From positions 2,442,547 to 2,489,475 of the forward strand of contig CP070777.1 in NCBI GenBank assembly GCA_020346225.1: a stretch of 46,929 bases of DNA. The letters run 5' to 3'. This document shows, piece by piece, positions 24,700-46,929 of the stretch. Both the position numbers and the translations under genes were made by a program. How positions within the stretch are numbered: the stretch's first letter is position 1; each line of letters begins with the position of its first letter. The notes below the pieces were generated by a model. That model did no database searches. It was not told the DNA's origin and saw only the letters and a program-made list of their open reading frames with translations. This DNA is from Candidatus Zixiibacteriota bacterium (GTDB taxonomy: Bacteria; Zixibacteria; MSB-5A5; GN15; FEB-12).

Positions 24700-26346
24700 A
24701 TGCTCAAACTCGTTGGAACAGATGGAAGTCGTTACTACTCGTGGATGCTCGAGCCCGGCAGGCACACTATCGGACGCGCCCCAACCTGCAGCTTTCCCTT
24801 ATCCGATAGAACTGTTTCGAAAATCCATGCCGAAATCGAGGTTGACCGCGTCGGTCATCGTTGCTCCATCACCGACATGGGCAGTCGCAACGGCACCGTG
24901 GTGAACGGTGAGGCGGTAAAGACGAAAGTTGATATCAATGAGGGGGACGAGATCGTGCTGGGGCAGGTTGCTTTCAAGGTAGCCCTGTGTACGGACACTG
25001 ATCCCAAGGTCACCCGTACCAGGACAACCAGCCGGCTCGCCGAAGTGGACCCGGAGAAATCCGTTTTCCTCTCCATTAACGAAGCTCTCAGGCCCCTGCC
25101 TTCCAAGGTGACCGAACGACCGGAGGTTCTGCCGACACTTTTTGAAATGGCCAAGATTCCGGTGTTGCCGGAACCGCAGGAACAGATGCTGCAGCGGGCC
25201 TTGAAGCTGACCGCGAAGGCCATCCCCGCCGAAAGGCTGGCCGTCCTGTCCGCATCGCCCGGCGGACATGACATCGAAACCATGGCCTCGCTGCTTCCGC
25301 AGGAAAAAGATCTCGGTTCTTTCAGCCTTTCGCGCACGGTCGTGGACGAAATTCTGGCCGAAAAGACATCGATTCTTATTGACCCGCAGGTCGATCCCCG
25401 TTTCGCGCAGCAGCAATCCATTATAATGTCGAACATCGTGTCGGCTATGGCGGTGCCGCTGTTCGACGGCGGTCTGGTGCTCGGCATTCTCTATGTCGAC
25501 ACCACTAACCCGGCTCACCGGTACAACGACGACTACCTGCGCCTGCTGGCTACCTTTGGAAATCTCATAGCCTCGCGGCTTTTGAATTACGAGCTTATCA
25601 GGGAGCGTCAGGAAAAGCAGGTGCTTGATGCCGAGCTGAGGCGCGCCTCGATGATCCAGCGCAATCTGCTTACCCGGCAGGTTCCGCGTTTGGAGGGTTA
25701 CAGCCTCCATGCCTATCAGGAGCAATGCCGGCTGGTTGGCGGTGACCTGTATGACCTGGCCACACTCCCCGACGGCCGTCTGGCCTTCGTGATCGCCGAT
25801 GTCAGCGGCAAGGGTATGGGCGGCGCTCTGCTTATGTCCAATATTCTCGCCTCGTTCAGAATTCTCTACGGCGACCCCGGTTTCACCCTCGAACGCGTCA
25901 TAAGGCAGGTTTCCAAACAGCTCTTCCGCTACAGCGCTCCGGAGGATTTCGCCACCGTCTTCGCGGGTGTCCTCGATGCTGCCACCCACCGCCTGTCTTT
26001 TGTCAACGCCGGTCATAATCCGGCCCTGTTGGTGCGCCGGGACGGCCGGGTGCAATGCCTGGAGGCATCGGGCATAATGATCGGTGCTTTCGACGCCGCC
26101 GACTGGATGGAAGAATCGGTTCAGATGGACCCCGGCGACACGCTCCTTGTTTTCACCGATGGCGTCGTCGAGGCCGATAAGGACGACTGCCATTATGGCG
26201 ACGAGAGACTGCAGAAACTGGTATGCGAGAATCGTTGCCGGTCGCCCGAGGATCTCATCAATTGTGTGATTCAGGACGTGGTTGAATTTGTTGATAATTC
26301 GACGACATCGGACGATATTACCATGCTGGCCATAAGGAGGGAGTGA
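24700..26346 (+). CDS. FHA-GAF-PP2C (SpoIIE-type) protein phosphatase
   Basis: A 548-residue cytoplasmic signalling protein. Residues 22-92 are an FHA domain with GRAPTCSFPLSDRTVSKIHA and DMGSRNGTVVNG, which binds phosphothreonine. Residues about 140-298 resemble a GAF domain (AVPLFDGGLVLGILYVD). A short coiled region (299-325) leads to a PP2C/SpoIIE phosphatase (333-545) with metal-binding motifs VGGDLYD (346-352), DVSGKGMGG (367-375), NAGHN (436-440), TDGVVEA (486-492) and the final DDIT (538-541). The kinase gene starts 2 bp after the stop, behind a strong AGGAGG inside this gene's end. Phosphatase and kinase probably act on one another or on shared targets. Confidence 0.93.
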   Translation: MLKLVGTDGSRYYSWMLEPGRHTIGRAPTCSFPLSDRTVSKIHAEIEVDRVGHRCSITDMGSRNGTVVNGEAVKTKVDINEGDEIVLGQVAFKVALCTDTDPKVTRTRTTSRLAEVDPEKSVFLSINEALRPLPSKVTERPEVLPTLFEMAKIPVLPEPQEQMLQRALKLTAKAIPAERLAVLSASPGGHDIETMASLLPQEKDLGSFSLSRTVVDEILAEKTSILIDPQVDPRFAQQQSIIMSNIVSAMAVPLFDGGLVLGILYVDTTNPAHRYNDDYLRLLATFGNLIASRLLNYELIRERQEKQVLDAELRRASMIQRNLLTRQVPRLEGYSLHAYQEQCRLVGGDLYDLATLPDGRLAFVIADVSGKGMGGALLMSNILASFRILYGDPGFTLERVIRQVSKQLFRYSAPEDFATVFAGVLDAATHRLSFVNAGHNPALLVRRDGRVQCLEASGIMIGAFDAADWMEESVQMDPGDTLLVFTDGVVEADKDDCHYGDERLQKLVCENRCRSPEDLINCVIQDVVEFVDNSTTSDDITMLAIRRE

Positions 26347-26348
26347 CG

Positions 26349-30654: not shown

Positions 30655-33249
30655 TTACTTGATGATAACGAACTTGCCTATCTGCGTTCCCCGATCCGAC
30701 TCGACCACCCAGTAATAGATGCCGCTTACCGCCGCCTGAGTGTTCCGGGTTATCAAATCCCAGGTGTCATGCATGGCCTCCGGTCCGCCGTCGGGAAAGT
30801 CATGGTCGATTTCCCGTACCAGGTCACCGTCGAGAGAATAAATGTATATCTTGCAGACGCGGGGTAGGTTGGCGAAATGGATACGCCGCATACGGTCAGC
30901 CGACAGAATGCCGTCGGGATTCTCCAGTCCGTCGGCTTCGTAATCGGCATCCGCGCGGTAAGGATTGGGATACACATAGACCTGCAGATTTTCCTGTTCC
31001 ACTCGGTCTACCGATGTCAGGGGATAGGCTACCTGCGCTCCCTGAGCTACCGGGCTTTCCAGCGCGCCCAGCCCCACTTTCGGTGAGCCGAAATCAAAGG
31101 CCGTGACATTGACATAGTAGGGTATGGTGGGAAGAAGGTCTTCGACAACGACCTCGTACTCGAAGTACTTGAGGCGCCCTTCTTCGGTGAGTTCATCCGG
31201 TTGAGCCAGCAGCGGGTCAAGGTCCGACGGATAAGGCTGCTCCGGATACACTTTGGTTATCGGCGTGTTCACCCCGAAAAGGCACTGATTGTAATCCTGA
31301 GCCGTGAAGTAAAATATCGAGTCCGGGAAGCCGGGAAGGACATAGGGATCGCTTACCGTCCATTCGAGCGGTTGAAAGTCGTCGTCACCGATGGCCGTGC
31401 CGTAGAGTTCCTGGAGCTGCTCCGGCGAGAAGGGTTCATCCAGAAGCCGGTAGGTTTGCCGGATTACATCATAAACGTACTTGTTGTAGTTCTCTCTGTC
31501 AAAAGAGGCCACCAGACTGAAACTGATTGCCCTCTCGTCGTGGCCCAGATACACCCGGTATCCCTCGAAATCAAGTAATCCGGAGAAGCGATCACCGGTT
31601 GTTTCGGAGCGTTGCCCGTTGAAGCGGATAGTCAGGTTACCGACCCCCGGTGTGATCCAGAAGTCCGGCGGCGGCGGGGGAGAAGCCCCGCGCAGATCGG
31701 CCACGCCGTCTCCCTCGTACCAGGTCGTATCGCAGCCGGCCAGGACAATCCCGGTGTCGGTTACCAGCGTATCATAACAACACACCCGGAACTTGCCGCA
31801 ATAACCATCGCCGTCGCTGTCAACCCCGGGATTGTCGTAAATCCACGAGGCCCACCGGGCGTTGGTGGCAAAGCTTGTGAAATCGAGCCTGCTGTGGAAT
31901 TCGTGGGGATTGTACGGGTCCCAGGAGCTTTCGAAATCGTCCGGCCGGACATGGATATTATCGCCGCCGACCCAGGCGAAAGTTATCGGTAATTTCTCGC
32001 CCGGGTCAATATCGAATGGCCCGAAAGACAGAAGATTTCGAACGTCGAAGCCGTCGGCGAAGTTGACGGCGTCCTCCGGCGGCGGCAACCAGCCGTCTGC
32101 CGTGTGGTCCAGAGCGGTGTATATCAGGTCGTAGTCGAACTCGTCATGCCTCATGATATAATATCTGTTCCGGTCGCCGACCGGTGTTCCCATGCGGGGG
32201 CCGAAGTCCCGCCACGGGTCGTCCGGCGTCTCCAGGCGTCTGGGTCCGAAATCCTTGCTCGGATTGCCGTAATTGATGATCCACCAGTTGTAAGAATATT
32301 TGAGCGAATCGGACGGTGTCCGAACCACGCGCGCACCGACCGCCGCGAGGGGAGACTCATCATTCCAGGCGCCGTCGATAGGATCGCCGTCGTTGTCGGT
32401 GTGGTACGCGATGTTGACCGTGTCAATGTATCCGCAGCCCTCCCGGGCCGGGTGGGTCGGGTAAAATCCCACCAGATCATCGGTCCAGTGGTCGGAGTCA
32501 CGGTTGTTCAGGTGCCACACGTCACCGTCGATCCATATGCCCATGTACACGTTCTCCAGACGCTCATGTCCGATATTCTCAATGCGGTAATCGAACATGA
32601 TGAAATCATCGGCATAGTCGTAACTCCACGCCATTGAACGCTGCGTCGCCTTTATGTTCAGCGGGCGATGGGTGGTTTCCTCGTTAAACTCGCAGTAGCC
32701 GGTTCGGGTCATGTTCACGTCGGTGACCGTGTCCGTGTAGTAACAGATGATATCCTGCTCGGAATGAGCCTGATCGGAATAGTACTTGCTGGATGGGTCG
32801 ATCGTCTGGTACGTAAACTCACTGGCTTCGCCCGGATCGGGCCATAATTCGTAAGTACAGTAAAAGTCATCGGTGCCCACCGAAACCAGTGTGTCGCGAC
32901 CCACCACGGCACCCACCCAGAGGGCCGCCACCCAGAGATAAACCAGGTTGGTGTTGCGCGGATACACGCAGGAGCAGATCAGCTGCCCCGTGAACGGGTC
33001 GACCTCCGACTGCCCCTCGGTACCGAAGGTGCCGTTGTTGCCGATGACCAGCTGCATATTCCCGCGCGTGTGGGCGGAATACAAAACCACCGGCACGTCT
33101 GCCGAGAGGCTGGTCAGCCCCGGTTTCTCGCCGGCGGCTATCATTGACTTGATATCGGCGGCATGGGTCGTCACCGAGGTAATTGCAAATACAAGAACCG
33201 CCAAAAATGCGACTTTTTGGCGGGTCCCCTGATAGAATAGTCTGTTCAT
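30655..33249 (-). CDS. Large exported protein, tandem paralogue 1 (FnIII-like, FlgD-Ig-like C-terminus)
   Basis: An 864-residue exported protein, the last and most divergent member of a four-gene tandem family. A signal peptide (MNRLFYQGTRQKVAFLAVLV onward, cut near HAA) is followed by the family N-terminal region with FWVGAVVGRDTLVS-like text. The centre has an acidic DxDxDG loop (GVDSDGDGYCG), a CC pair, and WYEGDGVADLRGASPPPPPD, followed by an FnIII-like part with DFEGYRVYLG. The last ~110 residues (YPNPYRADADY, IYIYSLDGDLVREI, SGIYYWVVES, KFVIIK) form an FlgD-Ig / type IX-sorting-like domain. A TTG at 33264 is possible, but the ATG at 33249, 15 bp after paralogue 2, gives a normal signal peptide. 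Function is unknown. Confidence 0.85.
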   Translation of the reverse strand: MNRLFYQGTRQKVAFLAVLVFAITSVTTHAADIKSMIAAGEKPGLTSLSADVPVVLYSAHTRGNMQLVIGNNGTFGTEGQSEVDPFTGQLICSCVYPRNTNLVYLWVAALWVGAVVGRDTLVSVGTDDFYCTYELWPDPGEASEFTYQTIDPSSKYYSDQAHSEQDIICYYTDTVTDVNMTRTGYCEFNEETTHRPLNIKATQRSMAWSYDYADDFIMFDYRIENIGHERLENVYMGIWIDGDVWHLNNRDSDHWTDDLVGFYPTHPAREGCGYIDTVNIAYHTDNDGDPIDGAWNDESPLAAVGARVVRTPSDSLKYSYNWWIINYGNPSKDFGPRRLETPDDPWRDFGPRMGTPVGDRNRYYIMRHDEFDYDLIYTALDHTADGWLPPPEDAVNFADGFDVRNLLSFGPFDIDPGEKLPITFAWVGGDNIHVRPDDFESSWDPYNPHEFHSRLDFTSFATNARWASWIYDNPGVDSDGDGYCGKFRVCCYDTLVTDTGIVLAGCDTTWYEGDGVADLRGASPPPPPDFWITPGVGNLTIRFNGQRSETTGDRFSGLLDFEGYRVYLGHDERAISFSLVASFDRENYNKYVYDVIRQTYRLLDEPFSPEQLQELYGTAIGDDDFQPLEWTVSDPYVLPGFPDSIFYFTAQDYNQCLFGVNTPITKVYPEQPYPSDLDPLLAQPDELTEEGRLKYFEYEVVVEDLLPTIPYYVNVTAFDFGSPKVGLGALESPVAQGAQVAYPLTSVDRVEQENLQVYVYPNPYRADADYEADGLENPDGILSADRMRRIHFANLPRVCKIYIYSLDGDLVREIDHDFPDGGPEAMHDTWDLITRNTQAAVSGIYYWVVESDRGTQIGKFVIIK

Positions 33250-33264
33250 AGATCGATGCAACAA

Positions 33265-35832
33265 CTACATGATGATGACGAGCTTGCCGACCTGTGTTTC
33301 GCCGTTCTCAGCCTCCACGGTCCAGTAATATATCCCGGACACAACTTTCTGGGTATTGCGGGTTATCAGGTTCCACGTATCGTGCGAGGCTTCCGGGTCG
33401 CTGATATCCCTGTTGTGCTCTAGCTCACGCACCAGGTCGCCGTCCATAGTGTAAATGCGAATGGTACACCTGGCCGGCAGATTGGCAAAGTGCACGACCC
33501 GAACCCGGTCATCGGGTCGGTCCGTGTCCATACGGCCCTCGAAACTGTCATCTCTATAGCCGGCATCGCTGCGGTAAGGATTAGGATAGACAAATACCTT
33601 CAGATCGCCGTCGGTTACCGCCTGCGGCGAGGCGAGCGGATAGGCCGCCTGGGCGCCTGTGGCGCGGTTCGACTCCAGCGAGGCCAGGCCCGATTCCGGT
33701 GAGCCAAAATCAAACGCCGTAACGTTGACGTACCATTCCACCGTCGGCAGAAGCTCATCTATGATAAGTTCATATTCGTAGTATTTCAGCAGGCCTTCTT
33801 CCGTCAGCTCGCTGGGGTCGCATGAATCCGGGTCCAGGTGGGACGGGAAAGGCTGATCCCCGTATACCTTGCTGATCGGCGTACTCTGTCCCAGAACGGA
33901 GGCATTGAAATCCTGGGCCTCAAAATAGAAAATGGAATCCATGGAGCCCGGAAGTGTGTACGGACTGCTCTGGGGCCAGGCGTTCGGGTCGAAGTCCTCG
34001 CCGTACAATGCCCTCAGCGAGTCCGCCGAGAACGGGATCTCGGTCAGTTCGAAGCCGGCTTCGGGCATGCGGTCTGGATTGTACACAAACTTGTTGTAGT
34101 CTTCCACATCATATGACGCCACCAGGCTGAAGCTTGATTCGCGTTCGTCGCGCGAGATATAAACCCGGTAACCCTCGAAATCAATCATGCGGGAGAACAC
34201 GTCGCGGCTGGTCTGGGTGGCCGTGCCGTTGAACCGTACCCGGATAGCGCCCACCGTCGGCTCCAGCCACGTATCGGGCGCCGGCGGCGGTGAAGCTCCG
34301 CGGAAATCCGGAACTCCGTCGCCCTTGTACCAGATGGTGTCACACTGGGTCCCGGCTTCATCAAAGCAGCATTCACGGACGGCCCCGGAATCACCGTCAT
34401 TGTCAGAGTCGACCCCCGGATTGTCATACACCCGCGACGCCCAGGTCGAATTCAAGGCCATGTCCTCAAAGCCCAGATTGGCGTAGAACAGGTCGGGATT
34501 GTTGGGCAGGTTGTTGACATTGGCAGGGTCCCGATGGAAGTTCTCCCCGGCAATATAAGCGAACGAGATTGGCAGCCGCTCGCCGGGGTCGATGTCGAAC
34601 GGTCCGAAGGAAAGCAGGTAACGCGTGTCGTAGCCGTTGGCCAGATCGGCGGCGTCCTCCTGCGGCGGGTAAGCCCAGAGCGGGTCGGTCGGCGGTATCA
34701 CCGCCGTGTACACTTGGTCAAAATCGAACTCCATGTTGCGCAGCATGTAGTACTTGTTGCGGTTGCCTTCAGGCGTGCCCTGGCCGCCGGTCTGGAAATC
34801 ACGAAACTCTTCCTCCCACCGGCCCACCCAGCTGCGCTCGCGAGGACCATAATCCTTGTTCGGGTCCCCGTTGGATATCCACCAGTTGAAGGAAACATCG
34901 AGCACGTCGGCCGGCGTCCTGACGATTCTCATGCCGGTTACGGCGGGACACGAATTGTCCGGATAGCTCCCGCCGGCCGGGTCGCCGTCGTTGTCGGCGA
35001 TCCACGCGAGATTGACGGTGTCGACGAAGTCGCACGTACCTTCGTAGTTGCTTATGAATGTCTCTTTGAAGCCGCAGATGTCATCGGTGTGATAGTCCTG
35101 CGTGGCCTCCCAGCCGACATCACTGTCGTTGTAGAAGCCCATATAAACGTTTTCCAGAGGCGTCTGCCCGATGTTCTTGATCTCGTAATCGAAGAGGATG
35201 AAGTCTTCGGCATAAGCATACGACCAGGCGTAGGAACGCTGGGTAACCTCGATATTAAGAGGGATATGGCCCCGGCCGTCCCAGGTACCGAAGGGATCGA
35301 GATATTCCGCCGTGTCGGAATACCTGGCTATGAAATCCTCCTCGGAAACGGCGCCTTCGTATATCTCGGGGTTCTCCGGCGAGCGAATCGACTTATATAT
35401 CATCGCTCCCCCGAATTCCTCCGGGTCGGGCGAAAACTCGTTGGCGTTCCGCGACCAACCGTCGGCACCGCTGGAAAGAAGGGTGTCCCGGCCGACCACC
35501 GCTCCCACCCAGAACGCCGCCGCAAAAAGATACTCGACGTTCGAATTTTTGGGGTATTCGCACGAGGGAACCAGCAGGCCGGTGATGCAGTCGAGGGAAC
35601 TGCCTCCCGCCGGCCAGCCCGTGCCCAGCGTGCCGTTATTGTTCACCGACAGACTGATCTTGCCGACCCGGTGGGCGACAATACAAAAAGCCGGAGCCCC
35701 CTGAGCCGAGAGACTGGAACTCGTATATTTATCGGTGTCCACATCGATCGATGCGCGGGCCTCAACGGTGCCTGACACCATAAAAACCGCTAGCAGGATT
35801 ACTGATACAATTTTGGTGGCTTTTGAAATCAT
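33265..35832 (-). CDS. Large exported protein, tandem paralogue 2
   Basis: An 855-residue protein with a classic signal peptide (MISKATKIVSVILLAVFMVS, cut near EARA). It follows the family plan: VAHRVGKISLSVNNNGTLG; WVGAVVGRDTLLSSGADGW; NIEVTQRSYAWSYAYAEDF; the FNWWISN stretch; SFGPFDIDPGERLPISFAY; the acidic loop GVDSDNDGDSG with CC and a later C; WYKGDGVPDFRGASPPPAPD; FnIII-like DFEGYRVYISRDERESSFSL with a long insert; and the C-terminal FlgD-Ig-like domain ending KLVIIM. It is closest to paralogue 3 by eye. A 335-bp gap with hairpins separates the two, whereas paralogue 1 follows after only 15 bp. Role unknown; cell-surface or secreted placement is inferred. Confidence 0.87.
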   Translation of the reverse strand: MISKATKIVSVILLAVFMVSGTVEARASIDVDTDKYTSSSLSAQGAPAFCIVAHRVGKISLSVNNNGTLGTGWPAGGSSLDCITGLLVPSCEYPKNSNVEYLFAAAFWVGAVVGRDTLLSSGADGWSRNANEFSPDPEEFGGAMIYKSIRSPENPEIYEGAVSEEDFIARYSDTAEYLDPFGTWDGRGHIPLNIEVTQRSYAWSYAYAEDFILFDYEIKNIGQTPLENVYMGFYNDSDVGWEATQDYHTDDICGFKETFISNYEGTCDFVDTVNLAWIADNDGDPAGGSYPDNSCPAVTGMRIVRTPADVLDVSFNWWISNGDPNKDYGPRERSWVGRWEEEFRDFQTGGQGTPEGNRNKYYMLRNMEFDFDQVYTAVIPPTDPLWAYPPQEDAADLANGYDTRYLLSFGPFDIDPGERLPISFAYIAGENFHRDPANVNNLPNNPDLFYANLGFEDMALNSTWASRVYDNPGVDSDNDGDSGAVRECCFDEAGTQCDTIWYKGDGVPDFRGASPPPAPDTWLEPTVGAIRVRFNGTATQTSRDVFSRMIDFEGYRVYISRDERESSFSLVASYDVEDYNKFVYNPDRMPEAGFELTEIPFSADSLRALYGEDFDPNAWPQSSPYTLPGSMDSIFYFEAQDFNASVLGQSTPISKVYGDQPFPSHLDPDSCDPSELTEEGLLKYYEYELIIDELLPTVEWYVNVTAFDFGSPESGLASLESNRATGAQAAYPLASPQAVTDGDLKVFVYPNPYRSDAGYRDDSFEGRMDTDRPDDRVRVVHFANLPARCTIRIYTMDGDLVRELEHNRDISDPEASHDTWNLITRNTQKVVSGIYYWTVEAENGETQVGKLVIIM

Positions 35833-35890
35833 GGCGATATACTCTGGTTTGATAGTTTTATAGACTGACGTTTATCCTCTTGAGTCGGTT

Positions 35891-35919
35891 CAAAAAAAAC
35901 ATGACACTTCTAGTGTCAT
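35891..35919 (-). terminator. Intrinsic terminator-like hairpin with T8 tract
   Basis: Read on the minus strand: ATGACACT-AGA-AGTGTCAT followed by GTTTTTTTTG. The 8-bp arms are perfect (35901-35908 and 35912-35919). It lies about 250 bp after the stop of paralogue 3 and before the start of paralogue 2. Confidence 0.7.
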
Positions 35920-36093
35920 ATATCTAAGCCCTAAAGCTACGAAAAACAATCTCCCGGCGCAAGTTTTTTGGGGCAAAAAATCGCGTTCCGAAGGTGCCCG
36001 GGCACCCCTTTTTGACGCAAGTAACTTTCTGAAGCCAAAACGCTTACTCCGTGTCGTTGGCCGTCTGCCCTCGAACCTCTCCTGGGATGATTA

Positions 36094-36121
36094 AACCGGC
36101 GGAGCCGGAGCCCCGCCGGTT
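36094..36121 (-). terminator. GC-rich hairpin after paralogue 3
   Basis: 9-bp perfect arms AACCGGCGG (36094-36102) and CCGCCGGTT (36113-36121) with a 10-nt loop, 46 bp after the stop of paralogue 3. On the minus strand it is followed by TTTAATC, a weak T-tract. Confidence 0.55.
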
Positions 36122-36167
36122 ACACCCCATGAGCTCGGATTATGCTGCCGCCCTGCGGCTCGTAAAT

Positions 36168-38762
36168 CTACATTATGACTACCAGTTTGCCTATCTGCGC
36201 GTCACCGTCCTCCGTTTCCACTACCCAGTAGTAGATACCGGATGCCACCATCTGGGTGTTTCTCGTGATGAGATTCCACTGGTCATGGGTCGATTCCGGA
36301 TCGAGGGGATCCCGGTCATGCTCCAGCACCCGAATCAGATCACCGTCGAGCGTGTATATGCTGATGGTGCACCGGGGCGGCAGGTTGGCAAAGTGCACAG
36401 TACGGACGCGGTCATCGGGGCGGTCGGAATCCAGGCGGCCTTCATAGCCGTCGGTTCGGTAATCGCCGTCGACTCGATAAGGGTTCGGATACACATAGAC
36501 CTTAAGACCCTCGCCGGCCACCTGCGCCGCCGAGGCCAGGGGATAAACCGCCTGGGCCGCAGTCGACGGATTCGATTCGAGTGACTGCAGCCCGGATTCC
36601 GGAGAGCCGAAGTCGAACGCCGTTACACTTATCTGCCACTCAACGGTCGGCAGAAGATCACCGACTATCAACTCATACTCGAAGTATTTCAGGTAACCCT
36701 CTGGCGTGAGCTCGCTTGCGTCAACGGAATCTACGTCAAAAGACGACGGGAACGGCTGGTCCGGGTAGACCTTTTGAATATCGGTTGTGACCCCGAACTC
36801 ACTGGCGTTGAAATCCTGGGGCTCGAAATAGAAGATCGAGTCTGGGAATCCAGGGAGCGTATATGGTGAGCTGTACGGGTGGTCAAGAGGATGGAAGGTC
36901 GTGCCGTACAACTCCTGCAGCTGTTGTAGCGTGAATGGTGTTTCCAGCAATTCGTAGCCGGCTTCAGGGAGAAGGTCGGGATTGTAGACGTACTTGTTGA
37001 AGTCCTCGATGTCGTACGAAGCCACCAGGCTGAAACTCGACTCCCGGTCGTCCCGCCCAATGTAGATGCGGTAACCCTCGAAATCCCTCATCCGGGAGAA
37101 GACATCCTGCGAAGTCTCCGTCCTGGTGCCGTTAAATCGAACCCGAACCGCTCCCACCTCCGGTTCCAGCCAGACGTACGGAGCCGGCGGAGGAGAAGCG
37201 CCCTTGAAATCCGGTACCCCGTCACCTTTGTACCAGATCGAATCGCATTGGGTTTCGGCCTCGTCAAAGCAGCATTCTCTAGCCTCGCCGAAATCACCGT
37301 CGTCATCCGTGTCAACCCCGGGATTGTCATATACGCGGGAGGCCCAGGTTGAATTGAGAGCAAGATCCGAGAAATCCAGGCCCGCATAATACTGATCCGG
37401 GCTGGCGGGCAGATTACCGGCATTCTGGGGATCGCGATGAAAGTCTTCGCCGGCTATGTAGGCGAATGAGATCGGCAGCCGGTCTCCCGGCTCGATGTCA
37501 AAGGGACCGAAAGAAAGCAGGTATCTGGTGTCGAAGCCGTCGGCCAGATTATTCTTGACGTCCTCCGACTGACTGGGGTACATCCACAGTTCGTCCGTCG
37601 GCTGGATAGCGGCAGTATATATCTGGTCGTAGTCAAACTCCATGTTTCGGAGCATGTAGTACTTGTTGCGGTCACCCTCCGGCGTGCCCAGACCGCCGGT
37701 ACCGAAATCGCGAAAGTCCTCGGCCCAGCGTCCCGTGCCCTCGCGCTCGCGCGGTCCGAAATCGGCATCGGAGGTCATGTTCGATATCCACCAGTTGAAA
37801 GATACATCCAGCTTGTCGCCCGGCGTGCGTACTATCCTCATCGCCGTAACGTCAGGACAGGACTGGTCGGTGTAGGTGCCTCCAACCGGGTCGCCGTCGT
37901 TATCGGCGATCCAGGCCAGATTGACCGTGTCGAGAAAATCGCAGGTGTTCTGATAATTGCTCACGAATGTTTCCCTGAAACCGCAGATGTCATCGGTGTG
38001 ATAGTCCGGCGTGGCTTCCCAGCCCACATCGCTGTCGTTGTAGAACCCCATGTACACGTTCTCGAGGGTTGTCTGGCCGATGTTCTTTATCTCGAAGTCA
38101 AAAAGAATGAAATCTTCGGCGTACGCATACGACCAGGCGAACGACCGCTGGGTAACCTCTATGTTGAGTGGCCGGTGCAGTTCACCCTGCCAGGAATTCT
38201 GGTCCACGTACGGCATGGTATCGGCGTACGTGGCGATAAAATCCTCCTCGGATACCGCTCCCTGATACAGAGAGGGGTTCTCGGGAAACCGCAGCGACCG
38301 ATACACCATGTCGCCCCACGGCGGCTCGTCCGGCGAGAATTCTTCCCCGTCGCTGCTCCACCCGTCGGCTCCCGTCGACACCAGAGTGTCGCGCCCGACT
38401 ACGGCTCCAATCCAGAAGCACACGGCATAGGCATAGTAGACTCGTGAGTTCTTGGGATACTCCAGCGGCGGGTTGAACAATCCGGAAATACAGTCAACGG
38501 GGTCGGCCCAGGCCTGAATCGTTGCCGCCAGAACGCCGGTGTTGCTCACCGCCAGGACTATCTTGCCGACCCGGTGAGCCACGGTGCAGTACGACGGTGC
38601 CGCCGAAAGCTGCCCCGCCGTCGTTTGATCTTTCCCGTCTTTGGTGAAGGCCGTACGGGCCGTGCTCGCGGCCGCGAGCATAAGGCAGAACAATACCGCC
38701 AGAACGATAACTCTTAATGCTGAAACCCTCCTATCCCTTCCAATCCACGTTTGAGAATTCAC
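36168..38762 (-). CDS. Large exported protein, tandem paralogue 3
   Basis: An 864-residue protein from a GTG start; no in-frame ATG precedes the signal peptide (residues 1-36, hydrophobic core VIVLAVLFCLMLAAAS). Landmarks: AHRVGKIVLAVSNTG (62-76), WIGAVVGRDTLVSTGADGW (117-135), NIEVTQRSFAWSYAYAEDF (200-218), the FNWWISN stretch (322-328), SFGPFDIEPGDRLPISFAY (417-435), acidic loop GVDTDDDGDFG (482-492), CC at 497-498 and C506, GASPPPAP (521-528), FnIII-like core from 534 to about 740 interrupted by roughly 110 residues, and a C-terminal FlgD-Ig/type IX-like domain (755-864) ending KLVVIM. The signal peptide and aromatic, acidic composition suit an exported surface protein. Function is unknown. 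Confidence 0.86.
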   Translation of the reverse strand: MNSQTWIGRDRRVSALRVIVLAVLFCLMLAAASTARTAFTKDGKDQTTAGQLSAAPSYCTVAHRVGKIVLAVSNTGVLAATIQAWADPVDCISGLFNPPLEYPKNSRVYYAYAVCFWIGAVVGRDTLVSTGADGWSSDGEEFSPDEPPWGDMVYRSLRFPENPSLYQGAVSEEDFIATYADTMPYVDQNSWQGELHRPLNIEVTQRSFAWSYAYAEDFILFDFEIKNIGQTTLENVYMGFYNDSDVGWEATPDYHTDDICGFRETFVSNYQNTCDFLDTVNLAWIADNDGDPVGGTYTDQSCPDVTAMRIVRTPGDKLDVSFNWWISNMTSDADFGPREREGTGRWAEDFRDFGTGGLGTPEGDRNKYYMLRNMEFDYDQIYTAAIQPTDELWMYPSQSEDVKNNLADGFDTRYLLSFGPFDIEPGDRLPISFAYIAGEDFHRDPQNAGNLPASPDQYYAGLDFSDLALNSTWASRVYDNPGVDTDDDGDFGEARECCFDEAETQCDSIWYKGDGVPDFKGASPPPAPYVWLEPEVGAVRVRFNGTRTETSQDVFSRMRDFEGYRIYIGRDDRESSFSLVASYDIEDFNKYVYNPDLLPEAGYELLETPFTLQQLQELYGTTFHPLDHPYSSPYTLPGFPDSIFYFEPQDFNASEFGVTTDIQKVYPDQPFPSSFDVDSVDASELTPEGYLKYFEYELIVGDLLPTVEWQISVTAFDFGSPESGLQSLESNPSTAAQAVYPLASAAQVAGEGLKVYVYPNPYRVDGDYRTDGYEGRLDSDRPDDRVRTVHFANLPPRCTISIYTLDGDLIRVLEHDRDPLDPESTHDQWNLITRNTQMVASGIYYWVVETEDGDAQIGKLVVIM

Positions 38763-38906
38763 TCCATTGACGGTTCAACACCCAGAATGGTTGAAGGCCA
38801 TATCTGGATATTTTTTGCGACCGGAGGATTTTGACCGACTGACAGCCCCCATCGGGCAAAGAGGAAAAGAGGATAAAATAACCCTTGCTTGCCGCGCCGA
38901 CAGCGG

Positions 38907-41498
38907 TTACATGATGATAACCAGCTTGCCGATCTGGGTTTCGAGGCCGTCGGCATCAACCACCCAGTAATAGAGTCCGGAGGCCACGGCCTGAGTGTTG
39001 CGCGTGATCAGATTCCACTCATCGTGCGACGCCATCGGGTCGGCGGGATCCACATCGTGCTCGATCTCCCGAATCAGGTCGCCGTCGAGAGAGTAAATGC
39101 TTATGGTGCACCGGGGCGGAAGGTTGGCAAAATGAACGGCCCGCACCCGGTTGTCCGGGCGATCCATTTCGGAGCGGCCTTCCAGTCCCTCGTCGCGGTA
39201 ATCGGCGTCAATGCGATACGGGTTGGGATAGACGTACACTTTCAGATCGCCGCTCGATACCGCCTCGGCCGAGTTATTGGGATAGGCCGCTTTGGCTCCA
39301 ACCGATACCGAGCTTTCCAGCGCCTCCAGACCGGCCTTGGGTGAGCCGAAATCGAAAGCGGTCACGTTGATCCAGTACGGTACCGTCGGAAGCAGGTCTT
39401 CCACCACGAACTCGTATTCGAAATACTTCAGCCGCCCGTCTTCGGTCAGCTCGTCGGCCGCCACCGAGTCGGGATTGAGAGATGAAGGATACGGCTGGTC
39501 GGGATAGGTGCGGCGGATGGGAGTCACCGTGCCGTATTCGGCGGCGTTGAAGTCCTGCGGCGCGAAATAGAAAATCGAGTCCGCGAATCCCGGCAGGAAA
39601 AACGGCTGGCTCTGCGGGTAATCAAGCGGGTGAAACGCCATGTCGCCACAGGAATCACCGTACAGGCAGCGCAGCGAGTCGAGGGTGTAGGGAACATCGA
39701 GCAGCTCGAAACCTTCCTCGACCCAGACATACTTGTTGTAATCCTCCTTGTCGTAGGAGGCCATCAGACTGAAGCTGGTCTCCCGGTCGTCCCGACCGCA
39801 GTAGATGCGATATCCTTCAAAGTCACTGATGCCCGAGAAGATGTCCTTGGTCGTTTCGGAGCGAATGCCGTTTATTCGAACGCGGATGCCGCCCACATGA
39901 GGTTCGAGCCAGAAATCGGGCGGCGGCGGGGGCGAGGCACCCCGGAAATCGGGGATACCGTCTCCCTCGTACCAGATCATTTCGCACAGGTTCGGGTCAT
40001 AGTCCTCTATCAAGACCGTGTCCAAAAGGTCTTCCAGGCTGTAGCCGATCGAGTCACAGCAACACAACCGCACTTTTCCGGCATAACCGTCCCCGTCGGT
40101 ATCGATTCCCGGATTGTCATATACTCGCCCGGCCCAGGCGGCGTTAAGAGCCATATCCGAGAAATCGATGTTGGCGTAGAAGGCATGGGGGTTGTGGGGG
40201 AGATTGCCGATGTTACCCGGGTCCCTGTGGAAATTCTCTCCGGCGACGTAGGCGAAGGAAATCGGCAATTTCTCGCCCGGGTCGATGTTGAACGGTCCGA
40301 ACGACAGCAGATAGCGGGTGTCGAATCCGTCGGCGAAGTCACCGGCCAGCTCCTGGAGCGGATAAAGCCAGAGGGTATCGGCCGGCCCGATCGAGGCCGT
40401 GTAAATCTGGTCGTAGTCGAATTCCATATTGCGCAGGAGATAGTACTGGTTGACATCCCCTTCCGGTGTGCCCAGACCGCCCGTCCTGAAATCCCGGAAA
40501 TCTTCCTGCAGGCGGCCTGCGCCGGCCCGCTCCCGGGGGCCGAAATCCAGCACCGATGAGGTATTGCTGATCCACCAGTTGAAGGAAACATCCAGCGAAT
40601 CCGCCGGCGTTCGCACGATTCGAGAACCGGTCACATGACGGACCGACATGTCGGTGAAGGCCCCGCCGTCCGGGTCGCCGTCGTTGTCCGCGATCCAGGC
40701 GATGTTGACGGTATCATAAAACTCGCAACCCTCGTACTCGTGCGGAAAAGCCTCCACGAACCCGCAAATATCGTCGGCGTAGCCGCGAGTACTGTTGTCC
40801 TGGCCAAAGTAGACATCGGCATCAACATAAATGCCCATATATACTTTCTCGAGCCGATTGCTGCCTATATTCTTCACCCTGTAATCAAACAGCACGAAAT
40901 CCTCGGCGTAGGAGTAAGACCAGGCATAAGAGTTCTGGGTAACTTCTATGTTGAGGGGTATATGAGGACGCCCGAAATAGTCCTGTTCGACACCCTCGGT
41001 GATGGTGTCGGTATATACGACAATGTAATCCTCTTCCGAAATCGCCCCCCGCGACAGGTCGTTATCGATGGAGCTGATCGACCTTTTGACGATCTCACCG
41101 AACGGCGCCTCATCAGGATTGAACTCGCGTATCCACGACCAGCCCGTGGCCGCGGTCGAAACCAGCGTGTCGCGACCGACCACGGCTCCAACCCAGAAAG
41201 CCCCGGCAAAGAGATACTTGGTGTTTGAGCCTCTCGGATACTCGCACGAGAGCACCAGTTCGTTGGTAAAGAAGTCGACATTGCTGTTGGCAAAGCCGTT
41301 ACCGAACGTCCCGTTATTGGTCACCGCCAGCACCATCCGCCCGACACGGTGCGCCACCGTCCCGTCGGCGGAGCTTATGGCCGATAAACTTTCATAGGGA
41401 ATCTTTCCATCATCCCGGTTGGCAGCATCTCTGGAAAACACTGAAGCGCACACCAGCAACGATATCGCCGCCGCGGCCAGTTTCGCAGATTTGGTCAT
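38907..41498 (-). CDS. Large exported protein, tandem paralogue 4 (first in the array)
   Basis: An 863-residue member with signal peptide (MTKSAKLAAAAISLLVCASV). It shares the family landmarks: VAHRVGRMVLAVTNNGTFG, WVGAVVGRDTLVSTAATGW, NIEVTQNSYAWSYSYAEDF, the acidic loop GIDTDGDGYAG, and GASPPPPPDFW. The cysteine segment is the longest of the four: CCC, then about 20 extra residues before the partner cysteine (NLCEMIWYEGDG). The C-terminal FlgD-Ig-like domain ends KLVIIM. A GAGAG sequence lies 7 nt before the ATG. It is transcribed first in the array, 215 bp after the subtilase gene and its terminator. Function is unknown. Confidence 0.87.
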   Translation of the reverse strand: MTKSAKLAAAAISLLVCASVFSRDAANRDDGKIPYESLSAISSADGTVAHRVGRMVLAVTNNGTFGNGFANSNVDFFTNELVLSCEYPRGSNTKYLFAGAFWVGAVVGRDTLVSTAATGWSWIREFNPDEAPFGEIVKRSISSIDNDLSRGAISEEDYIVVYTDTITEGVEQDYFGRPHIPLNIEVTQNSYAWSYSYAEDFVLFDYRVKNIGSNRLEKVYMGIYVDADVYFGQDNSTRGYADDICGFVEAFPHEYEGCEFYDTVNIAWIADNDGDPDGGAFTDMSVRHVTGSRIVRTPADSLDVSFNWWISNTSSVLDFGPRERAGAGRLQEDFRDFRTGGLGTPEGDVNQYYLLRNMEFDYDQIYTASIGPADTLWLYPLQELAGDFADGFDTRYLLSFGPFNIDPGEKLPISFAYVAGENFHRDPGNIGNLPHNPHAFYANIDFSDMALNAAWAGRVYDNPGIDTDGDGYAGKVRLCCCDSIGYSLEDLLDTVLIEDYDPNLCEMIWYEGDGIPDFRGASPPPPPDFWLEPHVGGIRVRINGIRSETTKDIFSGISDFEGYRIYCGRDDRETSFSLMASYDKEDYNKYVWVEEGFELLDVPYTLDSLRCLYGDSCGDMAFHPLDYPQSQPFFLPGFADSIFYFAPQDFNAAEYGTVTPIRRTYPDQPYPSSLNPDSVAADELTEDGRLKYFEYEFVVEDLLPTVPYWINVTAFDFGSPKAGLEALESSVSVGAKAAYPNNSAEAVSSGDLKVYVYPNPYRIDADYRDEGLEGRSEMDRPDNRVRAVHFANLPPRCTISIYSLDGDLIREIEHDVDPADPMASHDEWNLITRNTQAVASGLYYWVVDADGLETQIGKLVIIM

Positions 41499-41713: not shown

Positions 41714-44059
41714 CTACGGGCAGGCCGGCGGGGGCGGGCCCTCCACCCAGAAGTAATCGACCATGTAAATCAAATCCAGCGTATTAACAGGCTCTTCACC
41801 GTTGATTTCGGCCTCCTCCTCGCACGGCGGGGCCGGACCGCTGGCCCAGAAATAGTCGACCAGATAGGTCAGGTCGAGCAGATCGATCTGACCGCTGTGA
41901 TCAACATCGCCGCGCGCCAGGCAGCAGGACGTGGTGAGACCGATAGAGCCGGCGACCGTGGCGACTTCGTAGTCGAAATACCTCGTCTGATACTCCGGCA
42001 CGTAATCAAGGTAAGGTTCAATCAACAGACCGGCGCTCTGCCCTTCAGTGGCCCACGAGTTGATGGTGAAGTAGATCTTGACTATATCCCCCTGGCCGGG
42101 CGGCAGGTCGTAGGCGTTGGTGGTGGTCGAAGCTATCAACCGGACCGTAAGGCGCCGGTTCCACGGATCGACGTGCAGACAGTCCTGAACGTCGAAATCT
42201 TCCGTGCGGCAACCCAGCGTGGAGATGCTGTCATATGTCATGGGCAGGTCACCCGGATACAACACCGGCAGCTTGATGTAATTCACCGGGAGGGTGTTGT
42301 TGCCGGTTATGACAACCTCAACCTGTTCACCGGGCGCTCCCTGACACTGCGGCGCTTTCACCGTATCGGCCAGCGCTATGATATACTCTTCCCTTGTCAG
42401 TTGACGAATCTCACCGCCGGCGTTCACTTCGAGACTGACATCGAATATACCCGGCTCGTCATAGGTGTGAAAGGGCGACTGAACGTAGGCAAAATCGCCG
42501 TCGCCAAAATCCCAGGTCCAGATATCGACTGCCAGCCCGGATGACCCGGTGAAGTTGACATCGAGCGGAACCCAGCCGCTGGTGGGATCAGCGGTGAAGG
42601 ACACACCATACACCTGTTCGCATGACCCCCCCAGATCAGGCATGGGACCTATTTCTTTGTAGTGAGAAGCCTGCGGCGTGGAATAAGCCGTCAGAAGGTC
42701 CCGCAAATCGGCGTGATCGAAGGTGGTGCCGTAGGTGGCTTTCTGAATCCCCTGAAGAATGGCGCAGGCGCCGACTATGATCGGCGAGGCGCTGGAGGTT
42801 CCGGAGAAGGTGGACGTGTAAAAGTCGTCGGGACCGGAGCCCCACAAGTCGCCGTACCCCAGGGTATAAACATCCCAGGCGCCGAAAGCGTGCACATCAA
42901 CACGCCGGCCGTAATTGGTGAACGAGGCCGGGACATGGTCGGCGGTTGACGCCCCCACCATGATAGCTCCCGAAAACCGGTATTCCGGGTAAAACAGACT
43001 GTCATATATGTAGATGTTGTCGTAATCCTCGTTCCCGTTGGCGGCCGCCTCGACGACTATCTGACCCAGGGCCGAAGCCGTCAGGATGGCCGCAAAAGAG
43101 GCCTCCTCATACTCAACGGCAACGTAGTTGCCGCCGTTCGGGCCGTAAATCTGGAGTTCGATCAGTATTATGTCACCCACGGCCGCGTTGGCCGAAGCCG
43201 TGGCGATGGCGTTTTCGATCGACATGGATCCGACTGAAACCGTGCCCAGGTCGACATTGAAGGCGATTCCCGTCATACCGAAATCGTTGGAGTCGGCGGC
43301 AATCTCACCCAGCACGGCCGTGCCGTGGTTCCACCAGGTTGGGTCATCTATCCTGGCTCCGGCAATATGGAAATCATCGGTGCCGCCGTGCAGGTCCTCG
43401 TGAGTCTGAATCCAGTTTCCTTCGATGTCAATGACCTTGATATTCTCGCCCTTGCCGCCCGGGAAGTCCCAGCCGTAATAGGCATTTATGCCGGTCGGGG
43501 CCGGCTGAAGGTAGTACTGCTGTGATTCCCAGGCCGGAGTGGCTTCGGTCTCCGATACCGACGCTAACACAGGTTTGGAGGATAGATAGGCGATCTCCAC
43601 CAGCTCGTGGCGATTGAGCCGGTCGACCAGTCTCGCCTTATCCGGCGACGACATATCGGCCCTCAGCGCAACCCTGTAAAAGAGGGTCAGTGAGGGAAGC
43701 CGGCTGCCCGAGCGTCTCTGTCCGACCTCACGCATATTTATCAGAACGTCAGGATCCAGGCTGAAGCAGGGCCCGATACCGGTGACTCCATCGATTGAAA
43801 ACAGGGCATCATTGAGACGCGACCAGACAGCATCAGTACTGCCGAATCGACTGTTTTCAAGCGTCGGGGCTTGCGTCCCTTCGTTTAGCTTGAACACGAT
43901 GGCTTCCATGTGCGAGTAGTCGTCGGACGGCGAGTATTCGTTTTTCTGCGGCGGGCTCCACTTGAGTGGATGCCGGTTGCCGCTGTCGGCGGACACAACG
44001 TTGCCTATCAAAAGAAGGGTGAGGATAATTGCAGCAGATACTAACTGGATTTTTGACAT
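41714..44059 (-). CDS. Exported S8 subtilisin-like protease with PKD, cohesin-like and dockerin-like modules
   Basis: A 781-residue exported serine protease. Signal peptide 1-24; a pro-region to about 185; the S8 domain with Asp211 (VIDIEG), His245 (WNHGTAVLG), a putative oxyanion Asn in AANGNED, and Ser422 in FSGTSSASP. A PKD-like domain follows (about 486-563, TWDFGDGDFAYVQSPFHTYD). Residues about 564-706 look like a cohesin-type beta sandwich (APGEQVEVVI opening, GDIVKIYFTI later). The end (711-776) is a doubled dockerin-like repeat: CCLARGDVDHSGQIDLLDL and EINGEEPVNTLDL, each followed by a YxVDYFW helix. Promoter, GAGGGA ribosome-binding site and terminator are all visible, so it is its own transcript. 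Confidence 0.92.
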   Translation of the reverse strand: MSKIQLVSAAIILTLLLIGNVVSADSGNRHPLKWSPPQKNEYSPSDDYSHMEAIVFKLNEGTQAPTLENSRFGSTDAVWSRLNDALFSIDGVTGIGPCFSLDPDVLINMREVGQRRSGSRLPSLTLFYRVALRADMSSPDKARLVDRLNRHELVEIAYLSSKPVLASVSETEATPAWESQQYYLQPAPTGINAYYGWDFPGGKGENIKVIDIEGNWIQTHEDLHGGTDDFHIAGARIDDPTWWNHGTAVLGEIAADSNDFGMTGIAFNVDLGTVSVGSMSIENAIATASANAAVGDIILIELQIYGPNGGNYVAVEYEEASFAAILTASALGQIVVEAAANGNEDYDNIYIYDSLFYPEYRFSGAIMVGASTADHVPASFTNYGRRVDVHAFGAWDVYTLGYGDLWGSGPDDFYTSTFSGTSSASPIIVGACAILQGIQKATYGTTFDHADLRDLLTAYSTPQASHYKEIGPMPDLGGSCEQVYGVSFTADPTSGWVPLDVNFTGSSGLAVDIWTWDFGDGDFAYVQSPFHTYDEPGIFDVSLEVNAGGEIRQLTREEYIIALADTVKAPQCQGAPGEQVEVVITGNNTLPVNYIKLPVLYPGDLPMTYDSISTLGCRTEDFDVQDCLHVDPWNRRLTVRLIASTTTNAYDLPPGQGDIVKIYFTINSWATEGQSAGLLIEPYLDYVPEYQTRYFDYEVATVAGSIGLTTSCCLARGDVDHSGQIDLLDLTYLVDYFWASGPAPPCEEEAEINGEEPVNTLDLIYMVDYFWVEGPPPPACP

Positions 44060-44315: not shown

Positions 44316-46457
44316 TTATTCGATGGGTTTATCGAATGTGTCCGGCGCCAGTTCCGGGTTGATTACAAATTCCGTAATGGTGGTCTTTCCCATATCCTCC
44401 CCGTTTAAAGTCCGGTTGATAACGACAGGTACCTTGACGCCTTCAAACTCCGAGAATTCCTCAAAAGTCTCCTCGATTGTGCCGGCTCCGAAAGGCGTCA
44501 ATTCCCAGAAAGTCCTGCTGACCAGCCGGCCGTCGGCGCCGATACCCAGACTGCAGATGGTCTTACCGTCGCTGCCGGTCAGCGCCACGAAGTCGATGGG
44601 AGCGCCGTTTACATTCACTTTCCCTTCATAAACCACGCCGAACGGCGGGTCATCGGAGCAACGCATTATGTAGACAAAGCTGCGCATCAGGTCCTTGTCG
44701 TTCTCGGCGATGTCCTCGTCGGTCATCGGCACGATCGAGCCGTCGCTGCCCGTCTTCCAACCGCCGTCGCCGTTGCGGATATCGTAATAGGGCTGACCCA
44801 TCATGTAGATTATGTTGCGGCGCTTATCCGGATACTGGTCGGTCGACTCGAGCTGCAGCTCATAGTCGCCCTGCGGCGAGGAAAGGACCAGCTTCGACTT
44901 CACGAAAAGGCAGTTTATCTTCTTGAAGTTCTCCAAACCTCCCGCCACTTCAACCGCTTTGGCCAGCAACGCCATACCTTTGTCAACCGTCTCTTCCGTG
45001 GCCACTACCTCTTTCTCTTCTTCACCGCTCGGAATCGTGATGTCGATGGTCTCCACCGGCCCCAGACCGAGGTTTTCCAGAGGTTCGTCGAATTCGGCGG
45101 CATTGCCCAGAACCAGCACAATCAAATCGTCCGGGTGAAGATTGTTCTTGGCGGCCTCGACCACCGCATCCGGGGTCACTTTTTCGACACCCTGCTTCAC
45201 CTGCTGCAGGTAGTCCTGTGGAATGCCATAAAAGTCGTAGGTCATCATGCGGCTGAGCACCTCCTGCTTGGTGTCGAACTCAAAGACGAACGAATTCAGA
45301 TAGCCGTCCTTCCCCAGGGCCATCTCGTCCGGCGTGGGCGGGTCGGTCGACATCGACCTGATCTGATCGATAATAGCCCGCGCCGCCAGAAGCGTGCTCT
45401 GGGGCTTGGTGGAGGCGTAGGCATAAAAGATTCCCGGAAACGAGAAGTTGGTCGAGAACCGGCCGCGGGTCGAGTACGCCAGACCCATCTTCGTGCGCAC
45501 CGTGGCGGTGATGCGGCTGGAGAAACTCTCTCCCAGAATACTGCTCATCACCAGACGGGCGGCGTGGTCCGGGTCGGTGGTCAGTCCGCCTATGTGCCCG
45601 ATGCGAACATAGGACTGCTCCACATCGGTCTTTTCGATGTAATACACTTTGCTGCGAAAGTCGTAGGTGACTTCCGGCGGCGCGGGCACCGTGACATTGC
45701 CTTGCGGCCAGTCGCCGAAGTAACCCTTGACCTTCTCGACAACCTCCTCGGCGTTGAAATCACCCCAGACGGCCATCTGAATATTCTCGGGATGGAAATA
45801 GGCTTTGTGAAACGCCACGACATCATCCCGGGTGATGGCGTTCAGGGTGGCATACTCGGCGTGACGGGCATATGGTGATTCCGCACCATAAATCAGTTTG
45901 GCGAATTCCCGCCGGACGATTTGCGGCGGCTGGTCGTTGCGGCGGGCAATCCCGCTGCGAAGCTGCATCTTCGTCATATCGATTTTATCTTGATCGAAAA
46001 TCGGACGACGCAGAACTTCGGCCAGCACTTCCAGGCCCGTGTCGGTGTACTCGCTCAGCACATTGACCGACGCCCCCGCGGAGGTCGTGCCGATGAAAGT
46101 CTCCACCGAACCGCCGATGCCCTCCAGAAGCTCGTCGATCTCGTCGCCGCTCCACTTTTCGGTACCGCCGGTGCGCATAACGCTGCCGCAGATGCCCGCC
46201 ATTCCGATTTTCTCGGCCGGTTCCAGGAAATCCCCGCAGTTGACGCGAACCGTCACGTGAAACAGCGGCAGCGACCTGTCTTCCAGCACATATAGGCGCA
46301 TCCCGTTGTCGAGGGTCACCTTCTCGATGTCCGGAATCTTTAATTCACTTAGCTGAGGAAATTTCAGCTTGTCTATATCCTGCGCCAGGGCCGCGGAAGC
46401 GAGCAACGAGAGAGTCAAGGCGCCGACAACGATAACTGTAAAAAGCTTCTTAGTCAT
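44316..46457 (-). CDS. Exported M16-family subunit lacking the zinc site, with LolA-like C-terminus
   Basis: A 713-residue exported protein. Signal peptide 1-25 (cut at ALAQD), then two M16 half-domains to about residue 480. The place of the HxxEH zinc motif reads GMAGICGSVMRTGGT (85-99), so all three ligands or catalytic residues are replaced (G88, G91, S92). The segment SYVRIGHIGGLT and later KMGLAYSTRGRF match the R/Y-type region that non-catalytic M16B partners contribute. The C-terminal ~215 residues resemble LolA-like lipoprotein-sorting proteins (a YPDKRRNIIYMMGQ strand and later ELTPFGAGTIEETF). The active partner should be the upstream gene, 15 bp away. Well-placed GGAG and a strong terminator frame it. 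Confidence 0.88.
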   Translation of the reverse strand: MTKKLFTVIVVGALTLSLLASAALAQDIDKLKFPQLSELKIPDIEKVTLDNGMRLYVLEDRSLPLFHVTVRVNCGDFLEPAEKIGMAGICGSVMRTGGTEKWSGDEIDELLEGIGGSVETFIGTTSAGASVNVLSEYTDTGLEVLAEVLRRPIFDQDKIDMTKMQLRSGIARRNDQPPQIVRREFAKLIYGAESPYARHAEYATLNAITRDDVVAFHKAYFHPENIQMAVWGDFNAEEVVEKVKGYFGDWPQGNVTVPAPPEVTYDFRSKVYYIEKTDVEQSYVRIGHIGGLTTDPDHAARLVMSSILGESFSSRITATVRTKMGLAYSTRGRFSTNFSFPGIFYAYASTKPQSTLLAARAIIDQIRSMSTDPPTPDEMALGKDGYLNSFVFEFDTKQEVLSRMMTYDFYGIPQDYLQQVKQGVEKVTPDAVVEAAKNNLHPDDLIVLVLGNAAEFDEPLENLGLGPVETIDITIPSGEEEKEVVATEETVDKGMALLAKAVEVAGGLENFKKINCLFVKSKLVLSSPQGDYELQLESTDQYPDKRRNIIYMMGQPYYDIRNGDGGWKTGSDGSIVPMTDEDIAENDKDLMRSFVYIMRCSDDPPFGVVYEGKVNVNGAPIDFVALTGSDGKTICSLGIGADGRLVSRTFWELTPFGAGTIEETFEEFSEFEGVKVPVVINRTLNGEDMGKTTITEFVINPELAPDTFDKPIE

Positions 46458-46472: not shown

Positions 46473-46929
46473 CTAACCTTCGATAGTGTTCAGTTTGGCT
46501 ACCGTTCTATTCTGTTTCGTTAGGTACTGCTGAGCCGCGCGCTGCAGGTCTTCTGATGTCAGGGCGTTGATGCGGTCCAGCTGTAAGAAGAGCTGCCGCC
46601 AGTCGCCCCATTGGTTCTCATAACCGGCCAGCGCTATCGCCAGACCGAGGTTGCTGCTCAGACTGTTGATAAGATTCGCCTTGGCCCGTGCTTTGATCTT
46701 CTCAACCTCCTCCGCCGGTATCAACTCGGTCTTCAGCTTCTCAACTTCCGCGAAAATCTGCTCTTCGCATTCTTCGTTCGTGTGGCCCGGTGCCGAAATG
46801 GCGTAAACGATCATCAAACACGGATACTTGTTGCCCGGCCAGCCGGCAAACGAACCGCTCTGCGCCGCTATCTTCTTCTCCTTGACGAGATTCTTGTAAA
46901 GCAGCGAAGTGCGCCCCTGGCCGAGGTAA
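46473..46929 (-). CDS. M16 family peptidase, C-terminal part (5' end outside the window)
   Basis: The open frame continues to the window edge, so only the last ~151 residues are seen. They begin YLGQGRTSLLYKNLVKEKKI, a hallmark of the second M16 half-domain, and include the helix ending NLGLAIALAGYENQWGD. The zinc motif would lie upstream and cannot be checked here. The next gene, 15 bp downstream, is an M16 subunit without HxxEH, which makes this one the likely catalytic partner of a two-gene M16B peptidase. Confidence 0.9.
   Translation of the reverse strand, partial: YLGQGRTSLLYKNLVKEKKIAAQSGSFAGWPGNKYPCLMIVYAISAPGHTNEECEEQIFAEVEKLKTELIPAEEVEKIKARAKANLINSLSSNLGLAIALAGYENQWGDWRQLFLQLDRINALTSEDLQRAAQQYLTKQNRTVAKLNTIEG

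Follow-up and report, generated by a model that had tools for sequence, protein, structure and literature searches.

A tandemly duplicated family of exported supersandwich proteins in Candidatus Zixiibacteriota, with a branch of probable selenoproteins

The DNA studied here, called the window below, is a stretch of 46,929 nt from the 3.18-Mb, one-contig genome of a Candidatus Zixiibacteriota bacterium (G000), and at 30655-41498 it contains four consecutive, intact open reading frames on the minus strand that encode paralogous proteins of 855–869 amino acids, named P1 to P4 (Table 1). An earlier note on this DNA, made from the letters alone, had described such a tandem with landmarks recurring in a fixed order, from a signal peptide through a VAHRVGK-like strand, the FNWWISN stretch and an acidic DxDxDG loop to an FnIII-like core and a FlgD-Ig / type IX-like C-terminus, and all of the landmarks were found in that order in each of the four copies, P1 carrying the variants SAHTRGN, NIKATQRSMAWSY and YNWWIIN. 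Signal peptides were evident by eye in all four protein sequences. No copy has an internal stop, which means that there is no in-frame TGA in the window copies. The stop of P2 and the ATG of P1 are separated by 15 bases on a common strand, which suggests that these two genes may be co-transcribed at least in part. As for the surroundings, Pfam recovered the exported subtilase and the first of the two M16 peptidases that had been named as neighbours, whereas the second M16-like frame was recognized by sequence reading only. The subtilase lacks a type IX tail and closes with a repeat resembling a dockerin (Pfam Dockerin_1 E 0.05, below cut-off), and at 24700-29339 of the window a FHA-GAF-SpoIIE phosphatase is directly followed by a TPR-containing Ser/Thr kinase, likely as a signalling pair.

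Table 1. Features of the four-gene locus, of the modelled copy P4 and of the flanking genes (positions in the window), with the family loci of the genome in the last line
Feature	Position	Strand	Basis and remarks
P1	30655..33264	-	ORF, alignment; start at TTG (869 aa) or at ATG 33249 (864 aa); the copy that diverges most; no Pfam match
P2	33265..35832	-	ORF; 855 aa; Por_Secre_tail E 0.004 (below cut-off), PorZ-tail E 7.6e-6
P3	36168..38762	-	ORF, alignment; 864 aa; 70% identical to P2
P4	38907..41498	-	ORF; 863 aa; copy modelled with AlphaFold2 (mean pLDDT 90.3, pTM 0.81)
P4 signal-peptide region, residues 1-22	41433..41498	-	Sequence, and helix H3-26 (single N-terminal helix) in the model
P4 supersandwich domain, ~residues 42-470	40089..41375	-	VIA-align, Foldseek; like GH15/GH65/GH94/GH116 N-terminal domains
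P4 loop, residues 227-242, between two long strands	40773..40820	-	Model, alignment
P4 DTDGDG acidic loop, residues 466-471, calcium-loop-like	40086..40103	-	Sequence, alignment
P4 FnIII-like domain, ~residues 519-741	39276..39944	-	C-terminal model, structure comparison
P4 type IX CTD-like tail, ~residues 744-863	38907..39269	-	Structure comparison
Subtilase, exported, PKD and weak dockerin match	41714..44059	-	Pfam; context, joint action with the family only conjectural
M16 peptidase, exported	44316..46457	-	Pfam
Second M16-like frame, runs off the window end	46473-46928	-	Read from sequence only
Family loci in this genome	~0.20, 0.34, 0.95-0.965, 1.84, 2.24, 2.47-2.48 Mb		Family search of the genome

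In pairwise comparisons the P1–P4 proteins were 50–70% identical and the genes about 64–70% identical over the matched stretches of nucleotides, with one stop each, so that we regard them as paralogues that separated long ago and not as a repeat made in assembly. The family was found in 132 of 132 Zixiibacteriota genomes searched, and an assembly artefact, for which the earlier note had predicted absence from related genomes, or a recent repeat was excluded by this spread together with the nucleotide divergence between the copies. The present genome holds about 13 long copies, distributed over several arrays, and two proteins that resemble the family in the N-terminal domain only; other single-contig genomes have from 2 (G010) up to about a dozen copies, and nine lie in one array in G026. 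In the phylogenetic tree P4, P3/P2 and P1 each clustered with copies from related genomes, whereby their split is older than these species and was followed by lineage-specific duplications. A scan of genome contigs gave 74 loci, labelled mostly as Zixiibacteriota or unclassified; a contig labelled Ignavibacterium sp. (L056) carries three copies positioned within the Zixiibacteriota sequences of the tree, and either a wrong label or transferred genes may account for this.

The first half of the proteins, which according to the earlier note matched no domain, remained without any match for residues 40–530 in Pfam, NCBIfam and PDB sequence searches, but it did not remain so at the level of fold. 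In an AlphaFold2 model of P4 built on an alignment of 101 homologues, residues ~43–470 matched the N-terminal supersandwich domains of GH15, GH65, GH94 and GH116 enzymes (VIA-align Z 15–20, rmsd 2.9–4.5 Å, ~220–280 residues; Foldseek E 1e-7 to glycosidase/phosphorylase N-terminal supersandwich domains). The likeness to these enzymes (PDB 5bvu, 9ju0, 1ug9) is one of fold, at ~10% identity. Their (alpha/alpha)6 barrel catalytic domain was absent from the P4 model, which covers all 863 residues and beyond residue 470 contains nothing but beta domains and short helices, the supersandwich being joined instead to the DxDxDG loop, the FnIII domain and the T9SS-like tail. Structure prediction covering residues 40–530, proposed earlier as a check, gave a match to the N-terminal domains of known enzymes with no catalytic barrel behind it, and on the evidence of the model the first half is a known fold in an unrecorded domain combination. 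Across the 101 homologues D466 of the DTDGDG loop was invariant and D468 and G471 nearly so, and cysteine columns co-occurred in the pairs 46–76, 258–479, 480–505 and 611–617, a pattern that would be expected of disulfides in an oxidising compartment. The two proteins that have only the N-terminal supersandwich region in common with the family (L108 and L109, G000:C1:341574-346136) are each >1000 aa long and have a different C-terminal half.

A separate model of residues 507–863 (pLDDT 90.7) gave an FnIII domain and the tail. The former aligned to FnIII chains with Z ~8–9 and rmsd 2.3–3.0, with Pfam fn3 matches in 3 of the 101 members. Closest to the tail among solved structures was the CTD of PorZ (Z 10.5, rmsd 2.6, 89 residues, 26% identity), and the PorU CTD gave Z 9.7. 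In profile searches the P2 tail stayed under the curated cut-offs (Por_Secre_tail 17.8 bits vs 27, TIGR04183 16.0 vs 23), scores were lower or absent in P1, P3 and P4, and PF18962 matched 15/101 members at E<=0.01; structure comparison and these sub-threshold matches agreed in supporting the FnIII-like core and FlgD-Ig / type IX-like C-terminus first read from the letters. Since the genome encodes both SprA, which was over cut-off in 59/60 genomes including this one (455 bits here), and PorU (628.5 bits against a cut-off of 420), export of the family through type IX secretion appears likely. With the CTDs of T9SS type A substrates and of PorZ and PorU the tail shares its fold and C-terminal position, in a genome that has T9SS genes, whereas the remainder of the family protein is unrelated to PorZ and PorU and the tail scores below the TIGR04183 and PF18962 cut-offs. 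The tail might instead be a generic FlgD-Ig-like domain in proteins exported or anchored by a non-T9SS route, as could be argued from the Por_Secre_tail and CHU_C matches lying below curated cut-offs and from ~30 other places in the genome that match the PorU tail profile better; with PorZ and PorU CTDs as the closest solved structures and with SprA and PorU both present, we nevertheless regard that alternative as distinctly unlikely. The earlier view of an exported family with a type IX-like tail that diversified through tandem duplication was supported, and the proteins likely form part of a surface or secreted system. One family member (L163, G000:C1:196165-198399) has, in place of the usual tail, a type IX sorting tail of canonical appearance (NHPNPFN...), a hint that tails may have been swapped.

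What is most striking in this family is a branch with putative selenocysteine (Sec), which lies outside the window and was invisible to the earlier note. Four family copies elsewhere in this genome have exactly one internal TGA each, and a genome of the same genus (G025) has two further such copies; the CP070756 (bin295) loci, of a close relative recorded as Candidatus Zixiibacteriota, contain genes identical to those of the latter genome. In all six genes, from two species and two assemblies, the TGA occupies a single alignment column with coding sequence on both sides. The six are monophyletic in the tree (support 90/78), no TGA copies from others of the 132 genomes were found among the matches listed, and the branch is known from two species of one genus. 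Downstream of the TGA, dN was 0.2–0.33 and dS >1.1 in all fifteen pairs; a dN/dS this far below 1 argues that translation continues past the TGA, under purifying selection. A conserved start codon after the TGA was found in none of the six genes. One could suppose that the six genes have decayed into pseudogenes or that the TGA arose from sequencing errors, the family then being without selenoproteins, considering that the sequences derive from MAGs and that TGA also serves as ordinary stop in this genome (8/22 window genes); but the placement of the TGA in one shared column of six genes that have diverged and come from two assemblies, the strong selection downstream, the conserved hairpin with compensatory change and the complete Sec machinery, both presented below, make this extremely unlikely. 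Close to the two TGA genes of the congener, OsmC-like and DUF302-like genes were noted upon sequence reading (L165:6325-7209, G025:C1 near 881-882 kb).

Beginning 15 nt past the TGA, an 18-nt hairpin is present in 6/6 of the TGA genes, with 6 of 6 stem pairs formed in every one. Its sequence, TATGCTCGTGGCAGCATA, is unchanged in four genes and reads TATGTTCGTGGCAGCATA in one and AATGCCCGTGCCGGCATT in one, the last gene having two base pairs replaced on both sides together with a change of the encoded protein from YARGSI to NARAGI. The loop is CGUGGC or CGUGCC, with a G at the second loop position followed by U, 21 nt from the UGA. The published bSECIS model has a G within the first two positions of the loop, a loop of 3–9 nt and a distance of 16–37 nt from the UGA (PMC13188914), and the hairpin of the six genes agrees with it. 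When synonymous codons were drawn at random with the protein fixed, all six pairs formed in 0.3–3.5% of the trials per gene (P 0.003–0.035); among other codons of the family, 0.13% had such a hairpin including the G; and in TGA-less paralogues a 6-bp hairpin was found somewhere in a wider interval in 2/39. A covariance model of the hairpin, run over the 132 genomes, returned the six genes at E <2e-8 and one weak chance match, a seventh hit (G058) that was discarded as lying outside any ORF, and Rfam gave no match to the element at the gathering threshold. Minimum-free-energy z-scores over the 60 nt after the UGA were unremarkable in 5/6 genes and uninformative as a SECIS test, so that the case for the hairpin rests on conservation and covariation, the covariation coming from one of the six sequences.

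The genes for Sec decoding were all found in this genome (SelA 503 bits, SelB 296, tRNA-Sec 68), with tRNA-Sec, sprA, selA and selB as neighbours within ~14 kb (L170, G000:C1:2845796-2859768). Proximity of tRNA-Sec to sprA, ~4–8 kb apart on one contig, was also observed in many other Zixiibacteriota, such as G026, G027, G032, G036, G049 and G063. SelD of this genome (L183, G000:C1:724970-725890) is itself of the selenoprotein form, its gene having an in-frame TGA where the active-site residue is encoded (CAGUAAK), and this canonical placement indicates that the genome reads TGA as Sec elsewhere. Genome-wide reassignment of TGA was excluded by its use as terminator in the window genes counted above. 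Stem-loops that promote readthrough exist in other systems, and one may thus propose that the TGA is suppressed or read by a near-cognate tRNA with the hairpin as a readthrough element, or that the gene is split into two proteins. The presence of the Sec machinery, the position, spacing and loop of the hairpin, which fit a bacterial SECIS, the want of a conserved start past the TGA, and the fact that a separate C-terminal part would be without signal peptide all speak against these possibilities, which we judge to be very unlikely. Insertion of Sec at the branch TGA, by comparison of genes and genomes, is to our minds very likely.

The position of the TGA corresponds to the loop formed by residues 227–242 of P4. 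In 20/101 homologues, all at other loci (e.g. L015:977-3619, L012:815-3517 and L022:9989-12616), the same loop has a CxxC motif (DADVCFDC and similar), which makes it plausible that the loop may have a redox role or bind metal. Cys occurred at the exact Sec column in 0 of 39 compared homologues, the CxxC preceding that column by a few residues in a loop that aligns with gaps. Bonding of Sec to the conserved Cys 258 was considered, but the order of the strands in the model makes it look unlikely. As to the function of the proteins, the supersandwich is by itself no proof of carbohydrate binding; going by the model, we find a glycan-binding or structural role at the cell surface most likely. The fold is known also from active mutarotases and lyases, and this, together with the large number of Asp, Trp and Tyr positions that are invariant and with CxxC and Sec in one loop suggesting chemistry there, could be taken to mean that the family members are enzymes, either glycan-modifying or redox-active through the loop, and not binders or coat proteins. 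Yet the best structural matches are glycosidase/phosphorylase N-terminal domains, of enzymes whose catalysis sits in the barrel that is absent here, and the window copies P1–P4 have no CxxC in the 227–242 loop; an enzyme family is hence unlikely, albeit far from negligible.

With known bacterial selenoproteins of the bSECIS type (FdhA, SelD and those of the catalogue in PMC13188914) the branch outside the window shares the in-frame UGA, the hairpin distance, the GU in the loop and the Sec machinery, but it is without an exact Cys counterpart and without an evident redox fold. That catalogue also lists envelope selenoproteins, namely the TonB-dependent receptor FCYXU type and the GSU2204 MtrB/PioB-like proteins; these, however, are beta-barrels, unrelated to a supersandwich with a type IX tail. 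It is in our view highly probable that the branch, belonging to a type IX-exported tandem supersandwich family, consists of selenoproteins having Sec in an extracellular loop where related genera have CxxC. This would make it a selenoprotein family without previous record and, judging from the literature searched, the first case of Sec in a type IX substrate; in that literature nothing relevant connects type IX secretion with either Zixibacteria or selenoproteins, no family of such architecture was found in the passages searched of the 2026 prokaryotic selenoprotein catalogue (PMC13188914), and no NCBIfam model covers the six TGA proteins except for weak tail matches. Our confidence in the novelty is somewhat lower than that in Sec insertion, considering that it leans on one library of papers and one catalogue. 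Present selenoprotein searches depend on Cys homologues (PMC12013277), which is why the branch would have been missed.

The combined explanation that we propose, and hold to be fairly probable as a whole, is as follows. Proteins built from a signal peptide, supersandwich, DxDxDG loop with disulfides, FnIII domain and type IX CTD-like tail would cross the inner membrane probably via the general secretory route and the outer membrane via the T9SS of the genome, thereafter staying on the cell surface or leaving it. At the surface, the supersandwich would most likely bind glycan or build a surface coat. Tandem duplication would have given rise to paralogues that differ in the 227–242 loop, including a branch at other loci of the genome with Sec in that loop, its UGA being decoded by SelB and tRNA-Sec through the SECIS hairpin 15 nt downstream.

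For an uncultured phylum, one of its most conserved exported families, with ~13 large genes in a single genome, has now been given a name for its fold and for its likely export route. The Sec branch adds a candidate selenoprotein family of unusual fold and unusual location, to which no Cys protein corresponds exactly. Selenoproteins that lack Cys homologues fall into a blind spot of the search methods now in use, and the branch offers a specific example on which these could be improved. With it, the effect of a strongly reactive selenol on a bacterial cell surface also becomes open to test.
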